From: an uncultured Ruminococcus sp.
GTDB lineage: Bacteria > Bacillota > Clostridia > Oscillospirales > Ruminococcaceae
DNA: 44,808 bases
Direction: 5' to 3'
Assembly (NCBI GenBank): GCA_902788785.1
Contig: CADALT010000036.1
Coordinates: 1-44,808 of the forward strand
Below, in pieces: positions 2,068 to 43,327 of the stretch; within the stretch, counting starts at the first letter, position 1, and every line of letters begins with the position of its first letter. Under the pieces are notes generated by a model. The model did no database searches and was not told where the DNA came from. It saw only the letters and a program-made list of their open reading frames with translations. Made by a program: the position numbers and the translations under genes.

Positions 2068-3081
2068 ATGGATATACGCACGATCAAGAAAACTGCTTAC
2101 ATAGTAAATTCGGTCATTCTGGCGATGGTATTCGGGCTGATGGCTTTCTTCAATATGTGTAAAGCGACTTTTCTTACATATTTCAGCATACCTACTGCAC
2201 TTGTTTATGTCATCGGGTATTTTCTGATAGCGAAGAACAAGCTTTCGGGATATGTGATGATGGTATATATGTGGCTGACCTTTTATATGGGCATAACTAC
2301 ACTGTTTCTGGGGTACGATTACGGATTTCACTTATACTGCTTTTCGATGATACCTGTGGCATTCGTTACGGACTACATGGCGTACAGGCTGGGCAAGGCT
2401 GAGAGAAGGGCGCTGGTCATTAGCATAGGAGTGGCGGTATTTTATCTGATATGCACGGGATATGTGGCTGTGAACGGTGCGGTCTATAACAGCGACAGAA
2501 GGCTGACCGTGGTTTTCTGGATGTTCAACTCGGTGACGGTGCTGGCGTTTTTGCTATTCTATTCATGGTATCTGATAAGGTCGATAATCAATTCGGAGGA
2601 AAAGCTGAAAGAGATAGCGCACAAAGACCGTCTGACGGGGCTGTACAACCGCCATTATATGATAGATTATCTGGAGGCGGCAGAGAGTGTTGGATCGGTG
2701 GGCAGTCTTGTGATGGCGGACATAGACGACTTCAAAAAGATAAACGATGCATATGGTCATAATGCAGGTGATGCGGTGCTGATGGAGGTATCGAGGAAAC
2801 TCAGCGATATATGCGCAGGTTCTGTGACGGCAAGATGGGGCGGCGAGGAGTTTTTGATATACCTGCCTGTGGATGCGGACGAGGGAGAAAATCTGCTGGA
2901 AAAAGTTCGTGAAAAGATCGCTGCAGACAGGGTAAGGTTTGAGGACAAGGAGATAAGGGTGACGGTGACGCTGGGGCTTGCCGAAAGAGTGCAGGGAAAG
3001 TCCATCGACCTATGGATACAGGACGTGGATAAGAAACTGTACATTGGTAAAAACAGCGGCAAGAACAGGGTCGTAAGATAA
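2068..3081 (+). CDS. Membrane GGDEF protein, probable diguanylate cyclase
   Basis: The 337-residue protein has six hydrophobic segments in its first 180 residues, then a cytoplasmic GGDEF domain (about 190-335) with GGEEF at 258-262, a functional variant of the motif. The lead-in DRLTGLYNRH and the DIDDFKKINDAYGHNAGD segment are conserved, so it should make cyclic di-GMP. As in its divergent neighbour, the RxxD inhibitory site is missing. The start has GAGGGGA seven bases upstream. The membrane part has no recognised sensor family. The two genes are head to head with separate promoters. Confidence 0.92.
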   Translation: MDIRTIKKTAYIVNSVILAMVFGLMAFFNMCKATFLTYFSIPTALVYVIGYFLIAKNKLSGYVMMVYMWLTFYMGITTLFLGYDYGFHLYCFSMIPVAFVTDYMAYRLGKAERRALVISIGVAVFYLICTGYVAVNGAVYNSDRRLTVVFWMFNSVTVLAFLLFYSWYLIRSIINSEEKLKEIAHKDRLTGLYNRHYMIDYLEAAESVGSVGSLVMADIDDFKKINDAYGHNAGDAVLMEVSRKLSDICAGSVTARWGGEEFLIYLPVDADEGENLLEKVREKIAADRVRFEDKEIRVTVTLGLAERVQGKSIDLWIQDVDKKLYIGKNSGKNRVVR

Positions 3082-3101
3082 TATAGTAAATGACATAAAA
3101 A

Positions 3102-3137
3102 ACGGAGCTGACAAATAAATCAGCTCCGTGATTTTTA
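3102..3137. terminator. Bidirectional terminator
   Basis: The stem ACGGAGCTGA / TCAGCTCCGT has an 8-base loop. A-runs on the left and T-runs on the right let it stop both the GGDEF gene and the convergent DUF4236 gene, whose stop codon it overlaps. Confidence 0.88.
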
Positions 3138-3413
3138 TGGGGTCTGTTTTTTCGCAGGTTTTTTAGCGGAGGACGCAGGCTTCTTTTTTGCCGATGATGA
3201 CGGTCTCTTTTTGGCAGATGTGGGCTTTTTGCCGCTGCCGATATTGGTATCGTATGAAATGCCCGTACCCGGGATAGAAGCGGTAAGCTTGTCCTTATCA
3301 TTGAGGGTGACTTTGAGATTTTTGCCGCCTATGGATACGCTGAGTCCGCTCTTATTTTTGTTGATCCTCAGAAATTTGCCTATTTTAAAGCTTTTCTTGA
3401 TATTAAGTCCCAT
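3135..3413 (-). CDS. DUF4236 protein with a lysine-rich tail
   Basis: The first 55 or so residues of this 92-residue protein match the DUF4236 pattern: basic N-terminus, INKNKSGLSVSIGGKNLKVTL, then the signature PGTGISYD. The family has no settled function. The remaining third is a low-complexity tail of Lys, Ser, Ala and Pro (SSSAKKKPASSAKKPAKK), which resembles histone H1-like tails and could bind nucleic acid; that is inference. GGAGGAAAC lies before the ATG. The gene sits 15 bp downstream of the CorA gene on the same strand, so the two are probably co-transcribed. Confidence 0.85.
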   Translation of the reverse strand: MGLNIKKSFKIGKFLRINKNKSGLSVSIGGKNLKVTLNDKDKLTASIPGTGISYDTNIGSGKKPTSAKKRPSSSAKKKPASSAKKPAKKQTP

Positions 3414-3428
3414 GATGTTTCCTCCTTA

Positions 3429-4334
3429 TCAAAGCCATTTTTTCTTTTTGAAGAACCACAGGCAGCCCACCACGATGGATATACTTATCAGTATGACCAC
3501 GGGATAGGACGCACGCCAGGCAAGTTCCGGCATATGTACGAAGTTCATGCCGTACCAGCCTGTTATAAGGGTCAGGGGAGTGAACACGGTGGTCACTATG
3601 GTAAGCACTGCCATGATATGGTTTTGCCTTACATCGAGCTGCGACTGGTAGAGGTCACGGACCTGAATGGTATAATCACGCAGTGAAGCGGCTATATCGT
3701 GCAGCAGCGCCATACGCTGGTTAAAAAGATGGAAGTATCTGAGGTTATCCTGTTTGAAAAAGTTGTTCTCGTTCTCTTCAAGTTCCTGACCCAGATCCAT
3801 CAGCTGTTCATAGTGTATGCGCAGGTCACGCAGGTCGCTGCGGATCTCGTTGATGCGTCTGGGATAGCTGTCGTTCATATCGGTCATGATGGAATGTTCT
3901 ATATCGTCAAGTTCAGCCTCATAACGTTCCATGACCTGTTGGTCACGGTGGACTATCTGTTCGAGAAAATCGTAAATGAAACGTTCGAGACAAGGCATTT
4001 TCCAGCGCCTTGATGCTGCTATGCGGCGGATCAAACTATTGACGGTGCCGCTGTCGTCGATGAACACGATGCCTTTTTCATCAAGGGCAAAGGCAAAGCG
4101 TGCATCAGGGGCGGATATATCATCACGGTCGGGGACGGAGAATGTACCTGTAAGCGAATCGTAGTTGACTTCGGCTTTGGTGCTGTTGGCTTCTTTGGCG
4201 CTGACTTCGAGCTCGATACCCATATCGAAAGCGGCGCTTTCAGCCTGCCATTCCTCACTGGTCAGCACAGCTATATAGTCTTTTTCGGGAAGTGCGGCAC
4301 ATTCGGTGAGGGACTCGGCTATCTTATAGTACAT
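3429..4334 (-). CDS. CorA-family divalent cation transporter
   Basis: The 301-residue protein has a cytoplasmic alpha/beta N-terminal domain, a long helical stalk, and two C-terminal membrane helices (about 240-261 and 278-296). The family signature GMN is at 262-264, at the end of the first helix, and a basic tail (FKKKKWL) closes the protein. CorA pentamers carry Mg2+, sometimes Co2+ or Ni2+, through the inner membrane. GGAGGAA precedes the ATG. The leader is only about 50 bases and shows no M-box or other Mg2+ riboswitch. The substrate cannot be fixed from sequence. Confidence 0.9.
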   Translation of the reverse strand: MYYKIAESLTECAALPEKDYIAVLTSEEWQAESAAFDMGIELEVSAKEANSTKAEVNYDSLTGTFSVPDRDDISAPDARFAFALDEKGIVFIDDSGTVNSLIRRIAASRRWKMPCLERFIYDFLEQIVHRDQQVMERYEAELDDIEHSIMTDMNDSYPRRINEIRSDLRDLRIHYEQLMDLGQELEENENNFFKQDNLRYFHLFNQRMALLHDIAASLRDYTIQVRDLYQSQLDVRQNHIMAVLTIVTTVFTPLTLITGWYGMNFVHMPELAWRASYPVVILISISIVVGCLWFFKKKKWL

Positions 4335-4430: not shown

Positions 4431-4459
4431 TTGACAAGGCGAGTTATATGGGGTATAAT
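4431..4459 (+). promoter_or_regulatory. Sigma-A promoter of the cohesin-like gene
   Basis: TTGACA (4431-4436), 17 bp, TATAAT (4454-4459). It is back to back with the corA-like promoter, so polymerase binding at one could affect the other. Confidence 0.9.
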
Positions 4460-5236
4460 GAGAATAATTTAAATCATATGGCAAAATGTGGCATATCGGT
4501 ACAATATTTTTGAGGGGGCATGGAAATGAAAAGAGCATTTGCGGTAATTACGGTGATGTTGATGATATTTGGCATCACTGCATTTGCAGGCGGTACTGTG
4601 ATACGTGCGGCGGCATATGATGACGATGACAGGATAGCGTTGTGGCAGGAGAATAAGGAAGTGCCCTATGATGGCAGGTATTGGATACAGCCGAATGAAT
4701 GGAACTGCCCTAATATCTACTCCTGGGACTATGAAGGCGGTATAATGATATATTTTGACAAGATAGGGCTTTATCCTGAATATGCAAAGGGTAATGTGCA
4801 GAGGGTATATGTCAGCGTAGTAGGTGCGCAGGAACCTGTGAGCATGATGAAGTTCCACATTTTTTATGATAAAAGACTGAAGATAAAGAAAAATTCAAAG
4901 GACCAAGTGATAACCGCCGGAAGGGGAGTAGAGAAATTTACAACCGGTTCTTCGATGGTAAAAGAAGGAGAGCTTGCATTTTATTCATACTCAAATGAGG
5001 ATATAAAGCTTGATGACAGCTGTTTATTCACGATAGACTTTATAGTTCCCGAAGATGCAAAGCCGGGGGATATTTATCCTATCGGTATGTCATATATTGA
5101 TGACGGGATAGTATGTGATCTGTTTATAAATTCGGCGAAGGACTTTGCCGGAAAAATACAGATGACATATGTATTCACCAAGGGTATATACAATGGATAT
5201 ATCAAGATATTGGATCATGGAGAATATCCTGTGTAT

Positions 5237-5523
5237 GATGAAAGTTCTTCCGTAGCTGAAAGTTCGTCAAAGAAAGACAGTTCGGTGAATGAAAGCAGGG
5301 GAGGCACATCATCTAAAACGGAAAGCAAATCAGGGGAGTCCTCAAAGCCTCAAAGTAAGCCCGATGATGAAAGTTCTTCCGTAGCTGAAAGTTCGTCAAA
5401 GAAAGACAGCTCGGTGAATGAAAGCAGGGCAGGCACATCATCTAAAACGAAAGCAGGGCAGGCACATCATCTAAAACGGAAAGCAAATCAGAGGAGTCCT
5501 CAAAGCCCCAAAGTAAGCCCGAT
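5237..5523 (+). repeat. Two 129-bp linker repeats, the second enlarged by 29 bp
   Basis: Copy 1 is 5237-5365 and copy 2 is 5366-5523. They are nearly identical and encode the Ser-rich linker (DESSSVAESSSKKDSSVNES and following). The 129-bp period keeps the frame; the extra 29 bp in copy 2 does not. Confidence 0.9.
5421..5478 (+). repeat. Exact 29-bp tandem duplication that breaks the frame
   Basis: The unit at 5421-5449 is repeated without change at 5450-5478. It starts AAAGCAGGGC and ends TCTAAAACG. The parent sequence reads AAAACGG before the next AAAGCA, so a clean 30-bp slip would have been in frame; one G is missing at the junction. Confidence 0.93.
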
Positions 5524-5760
5524 GATAAATCATCAAAGGCGGAGAGCGATAAGAAGATCATAAAAGGTGATGCGAACTGCGACAAGAATATAAATGTTAC
5601 TGATATTGCCATGATAGCGGCACACATCAAGGGCATCAGGGCGCTTACGGGCAATGGATGGTATGCGGCGGAAGTGAGTGGCGATAACAGGCTGGATGTG
5701 ACGGATATTGCTATGATAGCGGCACACATAAAAGGTATCAGGGCATTAAGGTAAAAGATA

Positions 5761-9494: not shown

Positions 9495-11663
9495 ATGAGA
9501 GCGAACATGAGAAGAAGAGCAGCAGGGGTCACTGCTGCGGCAATGATGTTCACAAGCATGGGCGTCGGTGTAAATGCCCAGGAGGGAACAGCAGTAAATG
9601 AGAATAGTTTTACTTTTACTGCTGAAAATGTTACTGCTGCAAATGCTGACGGGAACGGTTTTAAGATCGAAGGTACTGCGCTGACCATCAGCGAGGCAGG
9701 CACTTACACGGTCTCGGGACAGTGCGCAAAGGGCAGCATCAAGATCAAGAAAGGCACAAAGGATGTTGTGCTGGTGCTGGACGGTATCGAACTTACAGCA
9801 ACGGACAGCGCTGCGCTGACCATCGGCAAGGAAGCTGACGTACAGGTGCTTGTAAAGGGCGAGAATACGCTCAGAGATGGTGAGGACCCTGCTGATGAGG
9901 AGTCCACAGATGCTGAGACTCAGGAAGCATTCGAGGGTGCTGCGGTAAAGGTAAAGAGCGGTGCAAAGGCTGTATTCACGGGTACAGGTACGCTTACTGC
10001 CGATGGTTCGGCTTGCAAGAACGGTATCAAGGGTGCTGCAACAGCTGCGGTAATAGTTGGTCAGGGCGAGGATGACGGTCTGACACTTAAAGTTGATGCT
10101 GCCAAGAACGCACTTGCATCGGACGGCAGTGTTGAGATAAAGGGCGGCAAGGTCGAACTCAACGCAAAGGGCGATGCGCTGAAAGCTTCACCCGAAGAGA
10201 ATGATAAGGACTCCGCAGGCACTGTTGCCATCAGCGGCGGCGAAGTCATCATAAACGGCGGTGAGGACGGCATACAGGCAGACGGCGGCTTCACGATGAC
10301 AGGCGGCATAGTTGATATAGTTGCGGCAGGCGGCCATACAAAGACTGCTGAAAGCGGCGGCAAGGGCATAAAGTCCGACAAGGCTGTGACCATTTCGGGC
10401 GGCGAGGTCTACATTGATGCGGCTGATGACGGCATACACGTTAACGGCACTGCGGGCGATGAAAAGCTTGCCATAACAGGCGGCAAGGTCAAGGTGCGTG
10501 CGGCTGATGACGGTTTGAAGAGCGACTATTATCTGGTAATAGGTACAGAGGACGGACAGGGTCAGCCTTTGGTAGATGTAAGCTATGCATGCGAGGGTAT
10601 CGAGGGTGCAGTTATTGACCTGTACTCGGGCACGGGCAGCGTTATGGCATCGGATGACGGTATGAACGCAGCAAACAGTGATCTTGAGGATTACAAGTTC
10701 GCTATAAATATTTTCGGCGGAAAATGGTTCGTAAATGCCAACGGTGACGGACTGGATTCCAACGGCGATCTGAATATCAAGGGCGGTGAGACACAGGTAT
10801 TCGGTACACCCAGCGGCGGAAACGCATCGCTTGACTATGGCGATTTTGGTTCACAGTTCAATGTAAGCGGCGGCTGGGTCGTAGGTATAAGTGACGGTGG
10901 AATGGCAGTTGCGCCTACCTCGGGCAACTATCTGATGTTCGGCAGCAAGGGCGGCTTTGGCGGTCCCGGAGGTCCCGGCGGTCCGGGTATGCCTCCCCAG
11001 GGTGGTAACGGACAGGGACAGCCACCACAGGGCGGCAACGGACAGGGACAGCCACCCCAGGGCAACTCTTCCGTTAATATCAAAGAAGGTACAAAGATCG
11101 AGATCAAGGACGGCAGCGGAAAGGTGATATACTCCGCAGAGGGCGTTAAAAACGCAAACAGCGTGATCTACGCTGCGGCTGACCTTAAAGAGGGCGAAAG
11201 CTATACTCTTGTGCTTGACGGTGAAGATGCTGAAACAGTAAAGGCAGAAGCAGGCTCGGAACAGCAGAGCGGAAATATGATGCCCCCTCCTCCTCCGGGC
11301 GGAAAGCCGGGCGACAGACCTTCGGGTGACGGTGATACCACTCCCGGTGAGGACGGTCCTTTCGGCAATATGATGTCGGGCGATGTAAATTCCGACGGTA
11401 AGGTGGATGTTACAGACATTGCACTGGTAGCATCACACATCAAGGGTATAAAAGCCCTTGACCAGTTCGGTTCGATGATGGCTGATGTTGACCGCAATTT
11501 CAGTGTAGATGTGACTGATATAGCTATGATAGCTTCACATATCAAGGGCATAAAGGCACTTGACAACACCATGCCCCCTCCTCCTCCCGAGGGTGATGAG
11601 GGCAATGCGGAAGTTCCCACGGGCAAGCTTCCCGAGGGCTTCGGTATACCTGACAGAAAGTAA
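9495..11663 (+). CDS. Secreted Cthe_2159-like carbohydrate-binding protein with internal dockerin
   Basis: The 722-residue protein has AGGAGGG seven bases before ATG and a signal peptide ending near VNAQE. Residues about 45-500 form repeated beta-helix strands (VVLVLDGIELTATDSAALTI, GGKVELNAKGDALKA, SGGEVYIDAADDGIHVNG), the pattern of the Cthe_2159 carbohydrate-binding family, whose founder binds cellulose and polygalacturonate. A Gly/Pro/Gln tract follows, with GGNGQGQPPQ repeated, then a small beta domain and a dockerin (GDVNSDGKVDVTDIALVASH and DRNFSVDVTDIAMIASH). A Pro-rich tail of about 35 residues lies after the dockerin, so the dockerin is not terminal. No catalytic residues are recognised. 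The upstream motif array suggests tight regulation. Confidence 0.88.
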   Translation: MRANMRRRAAGVTAAAMMFTSMGVGVNAQEGTAVNENSFTFTAENVTAANADGNGFKIEGTALTISEAGTYTVSGQCAKGSIKIKKGTKDVVLVLDGIELTATDSAALTIGKEADVQVLVKGENTLRDGEDPADEESTDAETQEAFEGAAVKVKSGAKAVFTGTGTLTADGSACKNGIKGAATAAVIVGQGEDDGLTLKVDAAKNALASDGSVEIKGGKVELNAKGDALKASPEENDKDSAGTVAISGGEVIINGGEDGIQADGGFTMTGGIVDIVAAGGHTKTAESGGKGIKSDKAVTISGGEVYIDAADDGIHVNGTAGDEKLAITGGKVKVRAADDGLKSDYYLVIGTEDGQGQPLVDVSYACEGIEGAVIDLYSGTGSVMASDDGMNAANSDLEDYKFAINIFGGKWFVNANGDGLDSNGDLNIKGGETQVFGTPSGGNASLDYGDFGSQFNVSGGWVVGISDGGMAVAPTSGNYLMFGSKGGFGGPGGPGGPGMPPQGGNGQGQPPQGGNGQGQPPQGNSSVNIKEGTKIEIKDGSGKVIYSAEGVKNANSVIYAAADLKEGESYTLVLDGEDAETVKAEAGSEQQSGNMMPPPPPGGKPGDRPSGDGDTTPGEDGPFGNMMSGDVNSDGKVDVTDIALVASHIKGIKALDQFGSMMADVDRNFSVDVTDIAMIASHIKGIKALDNTMPPPPPEGDEGNAEVPTGKLPEGFGIPDRK

Positions 11664-31544: not shown

Positions 31545-32516
31545 ATGGCGGAGACACTTTATATAGTGATACCATGTTATAACGAGGAGGAGATGCTGCC
31601 CATAACAGCCAAAGAGCTGATGAAAAAGATGGACGCTCTCATGGACGAGGGCAGGATAAGCAGGAACAGCAAAGTAATGTTCGTGGATGACGGCTCGAAG
31701 GACGCTACCTGGGAGATAATAGAAAAGCTGCATAATATGCAGGCGAGCGATATATTCACAGGTGTAAAGCTTTCAAGGAACAAGGGTCATCAGAATGCGT
31801 TGCTGGCAGGACTCATGACCGCAAAGAAGTATGCGGACATCGTTATATCAATGGATGCCGACCTTCAGGACGATATAAATGCAGTTGACGGTATGCTCGA
31901 TAAAAGAGCAGAGGGCTGCGAGATAGTATACGGCGTAAGGTCATCAAGAGAGACCGACACCGCTTTCAAGCGCAGCACCGCAAGAGGTTACTATAAGATG
32001 CTGGAGCTTATGGGCGTTGAGATAACCTACGACCACGCAGATTACAGACTTATGAGCAGGCGTGCGCTGGAGGCTTTGTCACAGTTCAAGGAGGTAAACC
32101 TGTTCCTCAGAGGTATGGTGCCCATGGTCGGTTTCAAGAGCGATATAGTCACCTATGAGAGAAACGAGAGAGTTGCGGGCGAGTCCAAGTATCCGCTGAA
32201 AAAGATGCTGGCTTTTGCCATAGAGGGCATAACCTCGCTGTCGGTAAAGCCCATCAGGTTCATCACCGCACTGGGCGTTATAATATTCGTTATCTCTATC
32301 ATAATGCTGATATACTTCCTCATTACCAAGGCTGCAGGCGATACAGTCAGGGGCTGGGCATCGACCATAACATCAGTTTGGGCGCTGGGCGGCTTGCAGA
32401 TGCTGGCTATCGGCGTTATAGGCGAGTATATCGGTAAGATATATCTGGAGACCAAGGCAAGACCCAACTTTATAATCGACATAGACCTGGAGGAACAATC
32501 CTCCGAACACAACTAA
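31545..32516 (+). CDS. GT2 glycosyltransferase of the DPM1/GtrB type
   Basis: The 323-residue protein has a cytoplasmic GT-A domain (IVIPCYNEEEML, VDDGSKDATW, DADLQDD metal site, RSSRETDTAFKR) and two C-terminal membrane helices (about 235-258 and 272-296). This plan is typical of enzymes that transfer a sugar from UDP- or GDP-sugar to polyprenyl phosphate, for wall or lipid glycan decoration. ATG 31545 is preferred (GGAGA ten bases before); a frame from 31515 lacks an RBS. No flippase gene is adjacent. Confidence 0.92.
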   Translation: MAETLYIVIPCYNEEEMLPITAKELMKKMDALMDEGRISRNSKVMFVDDGSKDATWEIIEKLHNMQASDIFTGVKLSRNKGHQNALLAGLMTAKKYADIVISMDADLQDDINAVDGMLDKRAEGCEIVYGVRSSRETDTAFKRSTARGYYKMLELMGVEITYDHADYRLMSRRALEALSQFKEVNLFLRGMVPMVGFKSDIVTYERNERVAGESKYPLKKMLAFAIEGITSLSVKPIRFITALGVIIFVISIIMLIYFLITKAAGDTVRGWASTITSVWALGGLQMLAIGVIGEYIGKIYLETKARPNFIIDIDLEEQSSEHN

Positions 32517-32538
32517 AAGTGAAAAGGAGTAATTGAAA

Positions 32539-33108
32539 ATGAACGATAATATCAAAGTTTCGGGAACAGTAAGCAATGACAAGATCGACAATTCAGAACT
32601 GGTAGAAGCTATCAACGATATGAGGAAGGAGTTCACTCCCGATGCGCAGAACAAGGTGATAAACCTGGCGCTGAGAGGTACTTTCCTTGTGCCTGCGGTG
32701 CTGGAGAGCAATCAGGAGCTGGTGGCTGACGAGAACAACCACGTACAGTTCCAGGACAGGCAGACAGCTAAATTTTTGCTGATAAACAACAAGGATAACG
32801 GCAACTCGTTCTTCCCTGTATTCACCGATGCAGAGGAACTGAAGAAGCTGGAGACCACAGCACAGTACAAGCCCTTTGCCATGAAGTTCAGCGACATCGC
32901 TAACCTGACAGAGAGCACCCCAAATGTTGTGGGCTTTGTGGTAAATCCTTACAACAGGTTCCATAACCTGCCCTTCACCAAGGAGATGCTCCAGTCCATC
33001 AAGCAGACCCTCATCAAGTTCAGACAGGAAAAAGAGGCTGCCGAGAAGGCTGTGAATGATGCGGACAAGCCCAATATAACAATGTCTTCCAATAACGAAG
33101 AGCAGTGA
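32539..33108 (+). CDS. SseB-family protein
   Basis: The 189-residue protein contains an SseB-like N-terminal domain: ALRGTFLVPAVLES, a strand pair AKFLLINNKDNGNSFFPVFTDAEEL, AMKFSDIANL and VVGFVVNPYNRFHNLPF. A charged helical tail follows. The domain is widespread and its role is poorly known; the name comes from E. coli SseB. ATG 32539 has AAGGAG ten bases upstream. It lies 22 bp after the glycosyltransferase, in the same transcript, and ends at a strong terminator. Confidence 0.85.
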   Translation: MNDNIKVSGTVSNDKIDNSELVEAINDMRKEFTPDAQNKVINLALRGTFLVPAVLESNQELVADENNHVQFQDRQTAKFLLINNKDNGNSFFPVFTDAEELKKLETTAQYKPFAMKFSDIANLTESTPNVVGFVVNPYNRFHNLPFTKEMLQSIKQTLIKFRQEKEAAEKAVNDADKPNITMSSNNEEQ

Positions 33109-34399: not shown

Positions 34400-35107
34400 A
34401 TGACAGAGCTGGAAAGAATGGATCTGGCAGAAAGCTACATAAACAGGTATTTTGAGTTTGAGGACGGCGTGGAAGTCAGCAAGGAGAACAAGGAGTATCT
34501 GAAAATATATATAAGGGATATTTCCGAGGCTGAGAAGGAATATAATTTCTCGGGCAAGAGGAATAAGACCATGCTGTATGTGCTGGCAGGTGCGGCGATA
34601 TTTGCGCTGATACTTCTGGCTGGATTTCACAGCGGACTGTTCTTCATCATACCTATTATCGGCTTTATCGGTGTGGTGATAGCAGGCTGGATGATGGCTA
34701 ACAAGTATTATACCAAGGGACTTACCGAGGCAAGGGATCATCAGAAGGAAGTCAACGAGGGTATAACCGAGCAGATAGAGCTTCTCGAGCAGAGAATAAA
34801 ACAGCTTGAAAAGCAGAGAGATGATTATCTGGCGGCTCTGAGGAAGAAGATCGATTTCATGGAGCTGGATATGGATTATATGCACAGCATAGGTCAGATA
34901 AAGCAGTTTCTGGTGGACGGCGAAGCTGAGACCTGTGAGGAGGCTGTGGAGATATTCGAGTCGAACCTGCTGATGCAGCAGATGTCGGGTATCATGAGCG
35001 CTAGTATCCATCATAAACAGGAGATGGATATAGAGAAGAACAAGGAGCGCTTCGGCAATCCTCTGGACCTTTTCGGCAAAAAGGGCAAGGATAAGAAAAA
35101 GAGGTAA
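34400..35107 (+). CDS. Membrane protein with coiled coil, unknown function
   Basis: The 235-residue protein has a cytoplasmic N-terminus (about 1-60), two membrane helices (about 62-78 and 84-103), a coiled coil (EGITEQIELLEQRIKQLEKQRDDYLAALRK split in two heptad runs, about 122-155), and a basic tail ending KKGKDKKKR. I do not recognise a family. ATG 34400 lies nine bases after GAGGG; the longer frame from TTG 34379 has no RBS. It has its own promoter and a terminator right after the stop. Confidence 0.85.
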   Translation: MTELERMDLAESYINRYFEFEDGVEVSKENKEYLKIYIRDISEAEKEYNFSGKRNKTMLYVLAGAAIFALILLAGFHSGLFFIIPIIGFIGVVIAGWMMANKYYTKGLTEARDHQKEVNEGITEQIELLEQRIKQLEKQRDDYLAALRKKIDFMELDMDYMHSIGQIKQFLVDGEAETCEEAVEIFESNLLMQQMSGIMSASIHHKQEMDIEKNKERFGNPLDLFGKKGKDKKKR

Positions 35108-35114
35108 TAAGATG

Positions 35115-35140
35115 GGGCGGAAGTTTATCCGCCCTTTTTT
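35115..35140 (+). terminator. Terminator of the coiled-coil membrane protein gene
   Basis: The stem GGGCGGA / TCCGCCC has a 6-base loop and a TTTTTT tail. It argues against a Nif3 start at 35112. Confidence 0.9.
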
Positions 35141-35171
35141 GGATACTGAAACAGATAGGATGGAAAATTTG

Positions 35172-35933
35172 ATGTATACTGTAGGAGATATTTATAATTT
35201 CATAGAAGAAACAGCACCTTTCGCATGGCAGGAGGGTTATGATAACAGCGGACTCTGTGTGGGCAACATGGGCAGACCTGCGGATAAGATAATGCTCTCG
35301 CTGGACTGTACTATAGATGTGGCAAGAGAAGCGGTGAAGAAAGGCGTTCAGCTGGTGGTTACCCATCACCCTGTCATATTCCGTGGGATAAAACAGCTCG
35401 ACCCCGACAGTGTGGTGGGCGTGCTGGCAGCAGGAGGAGTTTCGGTGATCTCGGCACATACGAATTTCGACAGTGCGGTGATGAACGATATACTCTGTGA
35501 GAAGCTGGGGCTTACCCCATCGGACTGCATAGCCGAGGAACACGGTGTTAAGACGGGCTGTATCTGTGAAACGCAGGGCATCACAGCAAAGGCGATGGCG
35601 CAGATACTCAAAGAAAAGCTGGGCTGTCCTACGGTGCGCTACGACAGGGCTAATGACGGCGAACTTAAAAAGATCGCTGTGTGCTCGGGCAGCGGCGGAA
35701 GCTTTCTTAATGATGTGCTGGCAAAGGGCTGTGACGGTTTCATCACGGGGGACGTAAAGCATGATATCTTCGTGGACGCCTATAACGCAGGGCTGACAGT
35801 GTTCGATGCGGGGCATTATTATACGGAGAATATTTTCTGCGGATATATGGAAAATGCGCTTAAAGAACATTTCCCCGATGCAGAGGTAAATATAGCCGAG
35901 ACTTCGGGAGATGTGGTGGAGTGGTCAACATGA
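35172..35933 (+). CDS. Nif3-like dinuclear metal centre protein
   Basis: The 253-residue protein matches the Nif3/YqfO family: start MYTVGDIYNFIEETAP, then EGYDNSGLCVG, VTHHPVIFRG (two metal His), AHTNFDSA (His, Asp), and near the end DAGHYYTE (His, Glu). These residues hold two metals in hexameric rings. The biochemical role is unsettled; GTP cyclohydrolase I type 2 is an automatic label. ATG 35172 has GGATGG about eight bases before it and fits the family N-terminus. Longer starts run through the terminator. Its stop overlaps the next gene by four bases. Confidence 0.93.
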   Translation: MYTVGDIYNFIEETAPFAWQEGYDNSGLCVGNMGRPADKIMLSLDCTIDVAREAVKKGVQLVVTHHPVIFRGIKQLDPDSVVGVLAAGGVSVISAHTNFDSAVMNDILCEKLGLTPSDCIAEEHGVKTGCICETQGITAKAMAQILKEKLGCPTVRYDRANDGELKKIAVCSGSGGSFLNDVLAKGCDGFITGDVKHDIFVDAYNAGLTVFDAGHYYTENIFCGYMENALKEHFPDAEVNIAETSGDVVEWST

Positions 35934-38677: not shown

Positions 38678-41600
38678 ATGGCAAGAAAAATGAAAACCAT
38701 GGACGGTAACAACGCTGCTGCTTGGGCTTCATATCCCTTTACAGAAGTCGCTGCTATCTACCCCATCACTCCTTCCTCTGTAATGGCAGAGGTAACAGAC
38801 CAGTGGTCTGCTAAGGGTCAGAAGAACCTGTTCGGTACACCTGTTAAGGTGGCAGAGATGCAGTCTGAGGCAGGCGCTTCGGGTACTGTACACGGTTCAC
38901 TGAGTGCAGGTGCGCTGACCACCACCTACACAGCTTCTCAGGGTCTGCTGCTGATGATCCCTAATATGTATAAGATCGCCGGCGAGCTGCTGCCCTGCGT
39001 TATCCATGTATCTGCAAGATGCGTAGCTTCCCACGCACTGAACATCTTCGGTGACCACTCCGATATCTATGCGTGCCGTCAGACAGGCTTCGCAATGCTG
39101 TGTTCTTCTAATGTACAGGAGGTAATGGACCTCGGTACTATAGCACACCTCTCCACCATCGAGAGCAGAGTTCCTTTCCTGCACTTCTTTGATGGTTTCA
39201 GAACATCTCATGAGATCCAGAAGATCGAGACATGGGATATCGAGGATGTAAGAGAGATGACAAACTTCGAGAAGATCGAAGAATTCAGAAAGAGCGCTCT
39301 CAACCCCGAGCACCCTGTACTGAAGGGTACTGCACAGAACCCTGACATCTTCTTCCAGGCAAGAGAAGCTTGTAACCCTTACTATGATGCTGTTCCCGGT
39401 ATCGTAGAGGAGTATATGGCTAAGGTAAACGCTAAGATAGGTACAAACTATCAGCTGTTCAACTACTACGGTGCACCCGATGCTACACACGTTATCGTAG
39501 CAATGGGCTCTGTATGTGATACTATCGAAGAAACTATCGACTACCTGAACAAGACCGAGGGCACAAAGCTGGGCCTCGTTAAGGTAAGACTTTACAGACC
39601 TTTTGCAGCTGACAGGCTGGTAGCTGCAATTCCTTCTACCTGCGAGCAGATCACTGTTCTTGACAGGACCAAGGAGCCCGGTTCTCTGGGTGAGCCTCTG
39701 TATCTGGACGTTGTTGCTGCACTCAAGGGCACACAGTTCCACGATATCCCTGTTGCAAGCGGCAGATATGGTCTGGGTTCCAATGATACAACTCCCGATC
39801 AGATCAAGGCTGTATACTGGAACGCAAGCTGGAAGGATACCTATAAGCCCAGATTCACACTGGGTATCATCGATGATGTTACCAACCTGTCTCTTGAGAC
39901 AGAGGGCAAGCTGGATTCCGCTCCCGCAGGCACAACTGCTTGTAAGTTCTGGGGTCTGGGTGCAGACGGTACAGTTGGTGCTAACAAGAACTCCATCAAG
40001 ATCATCGGTGACCACACCGACCTGTTCGCACAGGCATACTTCGCATATGACTCCAAGAAGTCGGGCGGCGTAACAGTTTCCCACCTGAGATTCGGTAAGA
40101 CTCCTATCAAGTCCACATACCTCATCAATCAGGCTGACTTCGTTGCTTGTCATAACGAGTCCTATATCTCCAAGTACAATATGGTACAGGATATCAAGCC
40201 CGGCGGAACATTCCTGCTCAACTGCCAGTGGGATGAGAAGGAGCTGGAAAAGCACCTCCCCGGTCAGGTAAAGAGATATATCGCTGAAAACAACATCAAG
40301 TTCTATACTATCAACGGCGTTAAGATCGGTAAGGAGATCGGTCTGGGCAACAGGATCAACACTGTTCTTCAGTCTGCATTCTTCAAGCTGGCAAACATCA
40401 TCCCTCTGGATGACGCTATCAAGTATATGAAGGACGCTGCTACTGCTTCTTACTCCAAGAAGGGTGAGGCTATCGTTAAGATGAACCATGACGCTATCGA
40501 CGCAGGCTGCCAGCAGGTAGTTGAAGTCAAGGTACCCGCAAGCTGGAAGAAGGCTAAGGATACCAAGATGGGCATGGACAAGATCACCGAGAAGCAGGAG
40601 AAGAACAAGACTCTGCGTGACTTCGTAAACAATATCCAGATCCCCTGCAACGCACAGGAAGGCGACAAGCTGCCCGTTTCCACATTCAAGGATATGGCAG
40701 ACGGCGTATTCCCTCAGGGCTCTGCTAAGTTCGAGAAGAGAGGTATCGCAGTTGACGTTCCTGCTTGGGACGGTGCAAATTGTATCCAGTGTAACTTCTG
40801 CTCTTATGTATGTCCTCATGCAGTCATCAGACCCAGCATCATGACAGACGCTGAGCTGAAGAAGGCTCCTAAGCTGGCACAGGATAAGGCAGTACCCGTA
40901 ACAGGTATGCCCGGATACAACTTCGTTATGACAATGTCCGCACTGGACTGCACAGGCTGCGGTTCCTGCGTAAATGTATGCCCCGGCAAGAAGGGTAACA
41001 AGGCTCTGAACATGATGCCTCTGGAGACTCAGCTGGCTGAGCAGGAAGTATTCAACTATGCAGTTGAGCTGCCTGAGAAGCCCGAAGTCCTCGAGAAGTT
41101 CAAGGAGACCACAGTCAAGGGTTCTCAGTTCAAGCAGCCTCTGCTTGAATTCTCAGGCGCTTGCGCAGGCTGCGGCGAGACACCTTACGCTAAGCTGATA
41201 ACACAGTTGTTCGGCGACAGGATGTATATCGCTAACGCAACAGGATGCTCCTCCATCTGGGGCGGCTCCGCACCTTCTACTCCTTATACAACTAATAAGG
41301 AAGGCAAGGGTCCTGCATGGGCTAACTCCCTGTTCGAGGATAACGCTGAGTACGGTTACGGTATGTTCCTGGCTCAGTCCACAATAAGAAACAGAACTAT
41401 CGCTAAGGTCCTGGAGCTCTCCAAGTCCACTAAGGCTGCTGCTGTTAAGGACGCTTGCGAGGCTTACCTGAGCACAGTTGATGACGGCGCTGCTAACAAG
41501 GCTGCTACAGCTAACCTCGTAGCTGCTCTGAAGAAGGCTAAGACAAAGGCTGGCGACGAGATACTCAAGGATGCTGATTACCTGGCTAAGAAGTCCATGT

Positions 41601-42191
41601 GGATCTTCGGCGGCGACGGTTGGGCATACGATATCGGTTTCTCGGGCGTTGACCACGTACTGGCTTCGGGCGAGGACGTAAACATCTTCGTATTCGATAC
41701 CGAGGTTTACTCCAACACAGGCGGACAGTCTTCTAAGTCCACTCCTACAGGTGCTATCGCACAGTTCGCAGCTGCAGGTAAGGAAGTTAAGAAGAAGGAT
41801 CTGGCCGGTATCGCAATGAGCTATGGCTACGTTTACGTTGCACACGTTGCAATGGGCGCAGACATGAACCAGTGCCTGAAGGCTATCCACGAGGCTGAAA
41901 GCTATCATGGTCCTTCCATCATCATCGGTTATGCTCCTTGTATCAACCACGGTATCAAGGGCGGCATGAAGATCGCTCAGACCGAGGAGAAGAAGGCTGT
42001 TCAGGCTGGATTCCAAGGCTCCTTCCGCAGATTACAGAGAGTTCATCATGGGCGAAGTTCGTTACAACGCACTCGCTAGACAGAACCCCGAGAGAGCAGA
42101 GAAGCTGTTCTCCAAGGCAGAGCAGAATGCTAAGGACAGATATGATTATCTGCTTAGATATGCTAAGCTTTACAATACCGAGGAGAAGTAA
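38678..42191 (+). pseudogene. nifJ: Pyruvate:ferredoxin oxidoreductase, frame broken near the 3' end
   Basis: The single-chain PFOR oxidises pyruvate to acetyl-CoA and CO2 with reduction of ferredoxin. Frame one (38678-42079, 1133 residues) covers the pyruvate-binding domain (YPITPSSVMAEVTDQW), the two-cluster ferredoxin domain (CIQCNFCSYVCP and CTGCGSCVNVCP), the CAGCGETPYAK cluster site, and the TPP site (GGDGWAYDIGFSGVDHVLAS, VYSNTGGQSSKSTPTG). At about 42011 it leaves the family sequence and ends in RRLQRVHHGRSSLQRTR. Another frame resumes with KAPSADYREFIMGEVRYNAL and runs to TAA 42189-42191. The expected YWHLYRYNP-type segment between is missing. So about 70 bp are deleted and the frame is shifted. 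The loss may be real or an assembly error. Confidence 0.85.
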
Positions 42192-43234: not shown

Positions 43235-43327
43235 ATGTCATTTCTAACGAAATGCCATTTTGTCATTCCTAACGAAATGCCATTTGTCATTCCGATGGAA
43301 TGACTTGCGCTAAAGTAAGAATGACAT
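43235..43327. repeat. MITE-like element with tandem 25-bp units in the S10 leader
   Basis: Ends ATGTCATTTCT and AGAATGACAT are inverted repeats. Inside, a 25-bp unit (TGTCATTYCTAACGAAATGC plus CATTT) stands twice in exact tandem (43236-43260, 43261-43285), then the palindrome GTCATTCCGATGGAATGAC. No coding capacity. Confidence 0.6.

Follow-up and report, generated by a model that had tools for sequence, protein, structure and literature searches.

In Ruminococcus albus 7 and SY3, one cohesin-containing protein has been described, which carries a C-terminal dockerin and is an orthologue of ScaF (Dassa et al. 2014, PMC4081043, excerpted text). According to the same excerpt, genomes of the R. 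albus type contain dozens of dockerins and at most one recognised cohesin, and the reason for this is called puzzling (PMC4081043). In R. flavefaciens, the dockerin of ScaF binds ScaE, and ScaE is itself anchored by sortase, as stated in the excerpted text of PMC5301203. In other systems, the copy number of tandem repeats has been found to be phase-variable; in the part of that report cited here, the repeats are located in promoters (PMC12817950).

We analysed a 44,808-nt stretch (positions 1 to 44,808 of contig CADALT010000036.1) of an uncultured Ruminococcus sp. (GCA_902788785.1), hereafter referred to as the window, whose coordinates are used throughout. Similarly to the lone cohesin protein of R. 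albus, as far as it is described in the excerpt of PMC4081043, the studied locus combines a cohesin, a linker and a C-terminal dockerin in a dockerin-rich genome. That protein differs from the window copy, whose linker is Ser-rich and repetitive and whose reading frame is broken. In R. albus KH2T6 and AR67, a further stretch is present at the place of the linker, and the frame is open. The window cohesin shares the type III cohesin fold and profile with ScaE of R. flavefaciens; however, ScaE is sortase-anchored (excerpt of PMC5301203), whereas the window cohesin has a dockerin downstream. As in phase-variable tandem-repeat loci, the number of repeat units could alter the product, but here there are two copies only, no variation was seen with one genome per species, and the flanks favour frame-keeping steps. 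By analogy in module content, the locus fits a monovalent adaptor scaffoldin of the ScaF type, although the modules of the window copy are split over two frames instead of residing on one polypeptide. We consider it about 75% probable that this is an adaptor gene of a known kind whose frame was broken by an error in the sequence or by a non-adaptive mutation of recent date, with no maintained switch.

A 29-bp tandem repeat in a duplicated linker

The elements of the locus are as follows.

4431..4459, + strand: promoter-like TTGACA-17-TATAAT upstream of the cohesin gene (a match to consensus only, of putative function)
4526..5563, + strand: cohesin ORF with a signal-peptide-like N-terminus (by eye), type III (ScaE-like) cohesin, Ser-rich linker and out-of-frame basic tail
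4646..5209, + strand: cohesin module
5235..5363, + strand: 129-bp unit, copy 1, without the insert (self-comparison)
5364..5521, + strand: 129-bp unit, copy 2, holding the 29-bp insert (self-comparison)
5421..5449, + strand: 29-bp repeat, copy 1 (exact match to 5450-5478)
5450..5478, + strand: 29-bp repeat, copy 2
5450..5563, + strand: out-of-frame basic tail (37 residues and the stop)
5446..5754, + strand: dockerin reading frame, without a start codon ahead of the dockerin (frame computed)
5563..5730, + strand: dockerin type I module (PF00404, 33.6 bits, cut-off 22.9; E 2.1e-08)

The exact, non-triplet duplication of 5421-5449 reported in the first-pass annotation was borne out by direct comparison, as the two copies agreed letter for letter, and by TRF, which called 5420-5485 with a period of 29 (2.2 copies, score 125). 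The perfect run at an offset of 29 spanned 5420-5478 and was the sole perfect tandem with a period of 20-199 when the whole window was scanned; judged on length alone, such a tandem is far beyond chance. The cohesin ORF and the dockerin are placed in different frames owing to this repeat. Upon recomputation, the frame arithmetic given earlier for the separation of the cohesin-like frame (4526) from the dockerin frame (5754) proved right. The cohesin ORF starts at 4526 (or 4520) and stops at 5561-5563, and the dockerin frame opens past a stop at 5443-5445 and ends with TAA at 5752-5754. There was no ATG, GTG or TTG ahead of the dockerin in its frame, the first one (5611) being located inside the module, and separate expression of the dockerin was rejected on that ground. 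The out-of-frame tail contains 11 Lys/Arg and 3 His residues, with zero Asp/Glu.

The self-comparison, run at offsets 129 and 158, revealed that the linker is composed of two tandem 129-bp units (43 codons, in frame), which, the insert excluded, differ at 4 of their 129 positions. This larger duplication was absent from the first-pass annotation. The 29-bp insert is confined to the second 129-bp copy. The GAAAGCA motif occurs at 5420, 5449 and 5479, with spacings of 29 and then 30 bp, and its spacing in the insert-free unit is 30 bp (5291, 5321). The base by which the second unit is told apart from the first (5301 versus 5430) is present in both 29-bp copies, which indicates that the insert was derived from the second unit and rules out its acquisition by recombination with the first one. 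Most simply, the insert would be younger than the 129-bp duplication. Because the seven-base GAAAGCA repeats would prime a 30-bp, frame-keeping slip, one G would be absent from the expected product. A 30-bp in-frame slip with the loss of one G had been proposed as another possible history; it fits the spacings of 29 and 30 and appears likelier, as a 29-bp slip on a single matching base would demand more. A 29-bp duplication primed by that single base is the less likely course. The earlier proposal of slippage at short direct repeats in the Ser-rich linker offers a good account of the locus together with the lost base.

The cohesin and dockerin modules

The upstream module, annotated before as 'cohesin-like', could be raised to a ScaE-like type III cohesin as judged by sequence profile and predicted fold, the latter being that of a cohesin. 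Its profile matches included PDB entries 8ajy and 4iu2 ('cell-wall anchoring protein'), both at E about 1e-18, and 2zf9 (ScaE of R. flavefaciens) at E 1.5e-12. The Pfam Cohesin model (PF00963) did not match the window ORF at E<=1, nor was there a match at its genomic place. At E<=0.01, the model matched 4 of 21 proteins of the relatives described below; since it misses most of them, the miss in the window is read as a limit of the Pfam model. The ScaE-like cohesin family, represented by the A1 profile, had one match in the genome that harbours the window, versus 63 dockerins. The cohesin tree assigned no settled position to the window cohesin.

The Ser-rich linker and the dockerin reported to follow the cohesin were both present, the latter recognised by Pfam. 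The dockerin is of type I, over the Pfam cut-off and with two calcium loops. The first loop is canonical, and the second has Asp/Asn at two of its four ligand positions. The second loop could be read in 60 of the 63 dockerins of the genome, and the first in 61; among those 60 second loops, 51 have four and 8 have three Asp/Asn ligands, making the loop of this dockerin the least canonical. Its combination of Glu at position 1 and Ser at position 3 was unique among the 60. The module scored 106.8 bits against the dockerin profile of its own genome (A3), which itself includes this dockerin. It was also the only one of the 63 to lack an upstream in-frame start codon.

Cohesin loci of relatives

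Related loci were collected by a pattern-based scan of GTDB r220 using two peptide patterns, which yielded 154 stretches and 25 relatives, a sample rather than a full census. Cohesin and dockerin were encoded in one ORF in 20 of the 25, including all four named strains (R. flavefaciens ATCC 19208 and SAb67, R. albus KH2T6 and AR67). Pfam detected a dockerin in 20 of the 21 relatives' proteins scanned, which comprised the 20 one-ORF forms and L048, a protein that ends at the cohesin. Neither a 29-bp array nor a frame change between the modules was found in the 25 loci. Four arrays occurred at this place in relatives, with periods of 15, 18, 18 and 24. Two further relatives, both MAGs, had damaged copies: the dockerin was shortened at about 3813 in L040, and in L057 the cohesin is interrupted at about 3327 by a stop that lies in the dockerin frame.

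The A1 cohesin profile matched 9 of 29 genomes of the genus, once each (the two rows obtained for G008 being counted as pieces of one ORF). The own-genome dockerin profile matched 19 of the 29, with 39 to 64 matches in the six genomes that have the dockerin form, own genome counted. Another architecture was observed in L048 (G018), L054 (G008) and L059 (G021): the proteins begin in a lipoprotein-like manner (by eye) and continue through a linker rich in Ser and Thr to a ScaE-like cohesin at the C-terminus. There was no dockerin in L048 and L054, and L059, with the same kind of beginning, is truncated by the end of its contig. In these three genomes (completeness of 83, 86 and 91%), dockerins were detected neither by Pfam nor by the own-genome dockerin profile. 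Two of the trio, the only two included in the cohesin tree, were close kin in it, so the dockerin-less forms may constitute one evolutionary case. As a guess, a lipid-anchored cohesin that lacks partners in its own genome might capture dockerin enzymes made by neighbours. Another genome, G009, contained 85 dockerins and no A1-type cohesin, which makes this cohesin patchy in the genus; among the relatives, the same genome also matched the oxidoreductase gene of the window (described below) best.

Tandem arrays in open frames and a second broken gene

Tandem arrays with a period of 10 or more were counted in open frames of at least 100 codons in sampled loci, some of them overlapping. The period was divisible by three in 43 of 46 arrays from loci of the own genome and in 20 of 23 from the loci of relatives. 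Besides the 29-bp repeat, the own genome had two non-triplet arrays, one at 43236-43293 and one in L121. The three non-triplet arrays of the relatives fall outside locus positions 3000-4200. The array at 43236-43293 is a 25-bp tandem of 2.4 copies in a short reverse ORF and is probably intergenic. A 30-bp repeat was also noted at 10991-11063, in a Gly/Pro/Gln-rich stretch of a Cthe_2159-like dockerin protein.

The genes of the window were compared with 16 stretches from the genomes of three relatives. Two of about 25 genes (the total reflects our own sorting) were split over frames, the cohesin-dockerin gene and the following one.

38678-42188: pyruvate:ferredoxin oxidoreductase gene, frame-broken, with a gap at 42006 (Pfam POR_N, E 3e-78)

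Two additional split matches, 32187-32946 and 34885-35459 (minus strand), were antisense to intact genes and were dropped from the census. The oxidoreductase gene is devoid of 65 bp at 42006 that are held by both relatives aligned (2/2). Its match splits at the same place against 24 relatives, and the offset was 65 in all 16 cases recomputed. As the gap is a 65-bp deletion, a base-call error does not account for it, and it would be either an assembly fault or a true deletion. The occurrence of a broken conserved gene in the same window suggests a sequence or assembly fault, or a damaged variant.

Origin of the frame break

The product of the intact gene would be secreted and would consist of a single type III cohesin of the ScaE kind, a linker rich in Ser that was extended by repeats, and a C-terminal dockerin. 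Such an adaptor would bind one partner through the dockerin of that partner, and its own dockerin would insert into another cohesin. Its linker may have grown by replication slippage, through a frame-keeping duplication of 129 bp and a subsequent gain of about 30 bp in the second 129-bp copy, primed by GAAAGCA. The loss of the junction G would then leave a unit that reads 29 bp and put the dockerin out of frame. The leading candidate cause, and a somewhat probable one, is that the G was lost in sequencing or assembly; a base-call error had been named as the main alternative in the first-pass annotation. A non-adaptive mutation that arose recently in the strain or population sampled is a serious though less probable source of the same loss. 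Among the observations that count against this account, the odd second calcium loop might reflect a relaxation of selection and a genuine loss of docking, the oxidoreductase gap is no base-call error, and non-triplet arrays do exist in open frames (3/46 in the own genome, 3/23 in the relatives' loci). Literature searches on slippage with dockerins and on indels in MAGs returned nothing on this gene among the matches listed.

The branch of this account that invokes mutation overlaps with a fixed loss of the dockerin, by which the strain would be losing its adaptor and secreting the cohesin free. This was judged rather unlikely. The unusual second loop is consistent with it, no other among the 60 having Glu at position 1 or Ser at position 3, and so is the occurrence of dockerin-less forms of this cohesin in the genus. 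However, the dockerin remains over the Pfam cut-off and scores 106.8 bits against the A3 profile that contains it, the copies of the insert are identical, so the break is young, and the dockerin-less forms sit in genomes without detected dockerins, unlike the own genome. The first-pass annotation had instead proposed that the gene toggles between a free and a docked form. According to this proposal, gain or loss of a 29-bp unit would reversibly switch a docked adaptor to an undocked cohesin with a basic tail. The exact non-triplet tandem does lie in the linker between the modules, the cohesin is intact and the dockerin recognisable, and repeat copy number is phase-variable elsewhere, in the promoters covered by the excerpt of PMC12817950. 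The proposal was not supported, and we consider it very unlikely: there are just two copies, the flanking GAAAGCA motifs favour steps of 30 bp, 43 of 46 sampled open-frame arrays keep the frame, and another conserved gene of the window is broken as well. Moreover, a phase-variable locus would be expected to keep the same array in relatives, and the 25 loci had no 29-bp array, the four arrays found there having other periods, and no frame change between modules. Among the matches listed for phase variation and the cellulosome, neither term appeared in a title or abstract. It is equally improbable that a single slippage site decides the docking of a lone ScaE-like cohesin, with a basic tail that possibly binds surfaces. 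Programmed -1 ribosomal frameshifting, which would fuse both frames in translation, is the least credible reading. The frames overlap such that a -1 shift would join them, and A-AAA at 5473 or C-CCC at 5506 could allow a slip of the P-site tRNA, but 20 intact relatives need no shift. No X-XXY-YYZ heptamer was present in 5446-5560, and the programmed frameshift was rejected as a candidate.

The preferred reading of a broken adaptor gene leaves two options: the strain can do without docking by the adaptor, or the sequence is incorrect. A relative that has a cohesin of this type, together with a traceable linker history and a frame break, provides a test case for the puzzle posed by dockerin-rich genomes of the R. 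albus type. A frame break found at a short repeat of a draft genome should not be taken as a switch without reads.

Other cohesin-like proteins of the genome

PF00963 matched the own genome at two places, C1:4798 and C21:34003. At E<=1, the model found matches in 28 of the 29 genomes (22 over the cut-off); of the 14 controls, 2 gave a match, and one of these exceeded the cut-off. The match at C21:34003 (11.9 bits) was rejected as a further cohesin, as it belongs to a dockerin protein without a Pfam cohesin. The term 'lone cohesin' is valid for the A1 family only, and the protein at C1:4798 is a weak candidate for a second, distant cohesin-like protein. Its match (L159:894-1934) reached 24.1 bits, at the cut-off, in the genome search, and 21.4 bits, below the cut-off, for the whole protein. 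The best PDB sequence match was to a scaffoldin, at a weak E of 0.029. In addition to a weak cohesin-like module, the protein has a cadherin-like domain and, by eye, probably a membrane anchor at its C-terminus; it is possibly a distant cell-bound cohesin.
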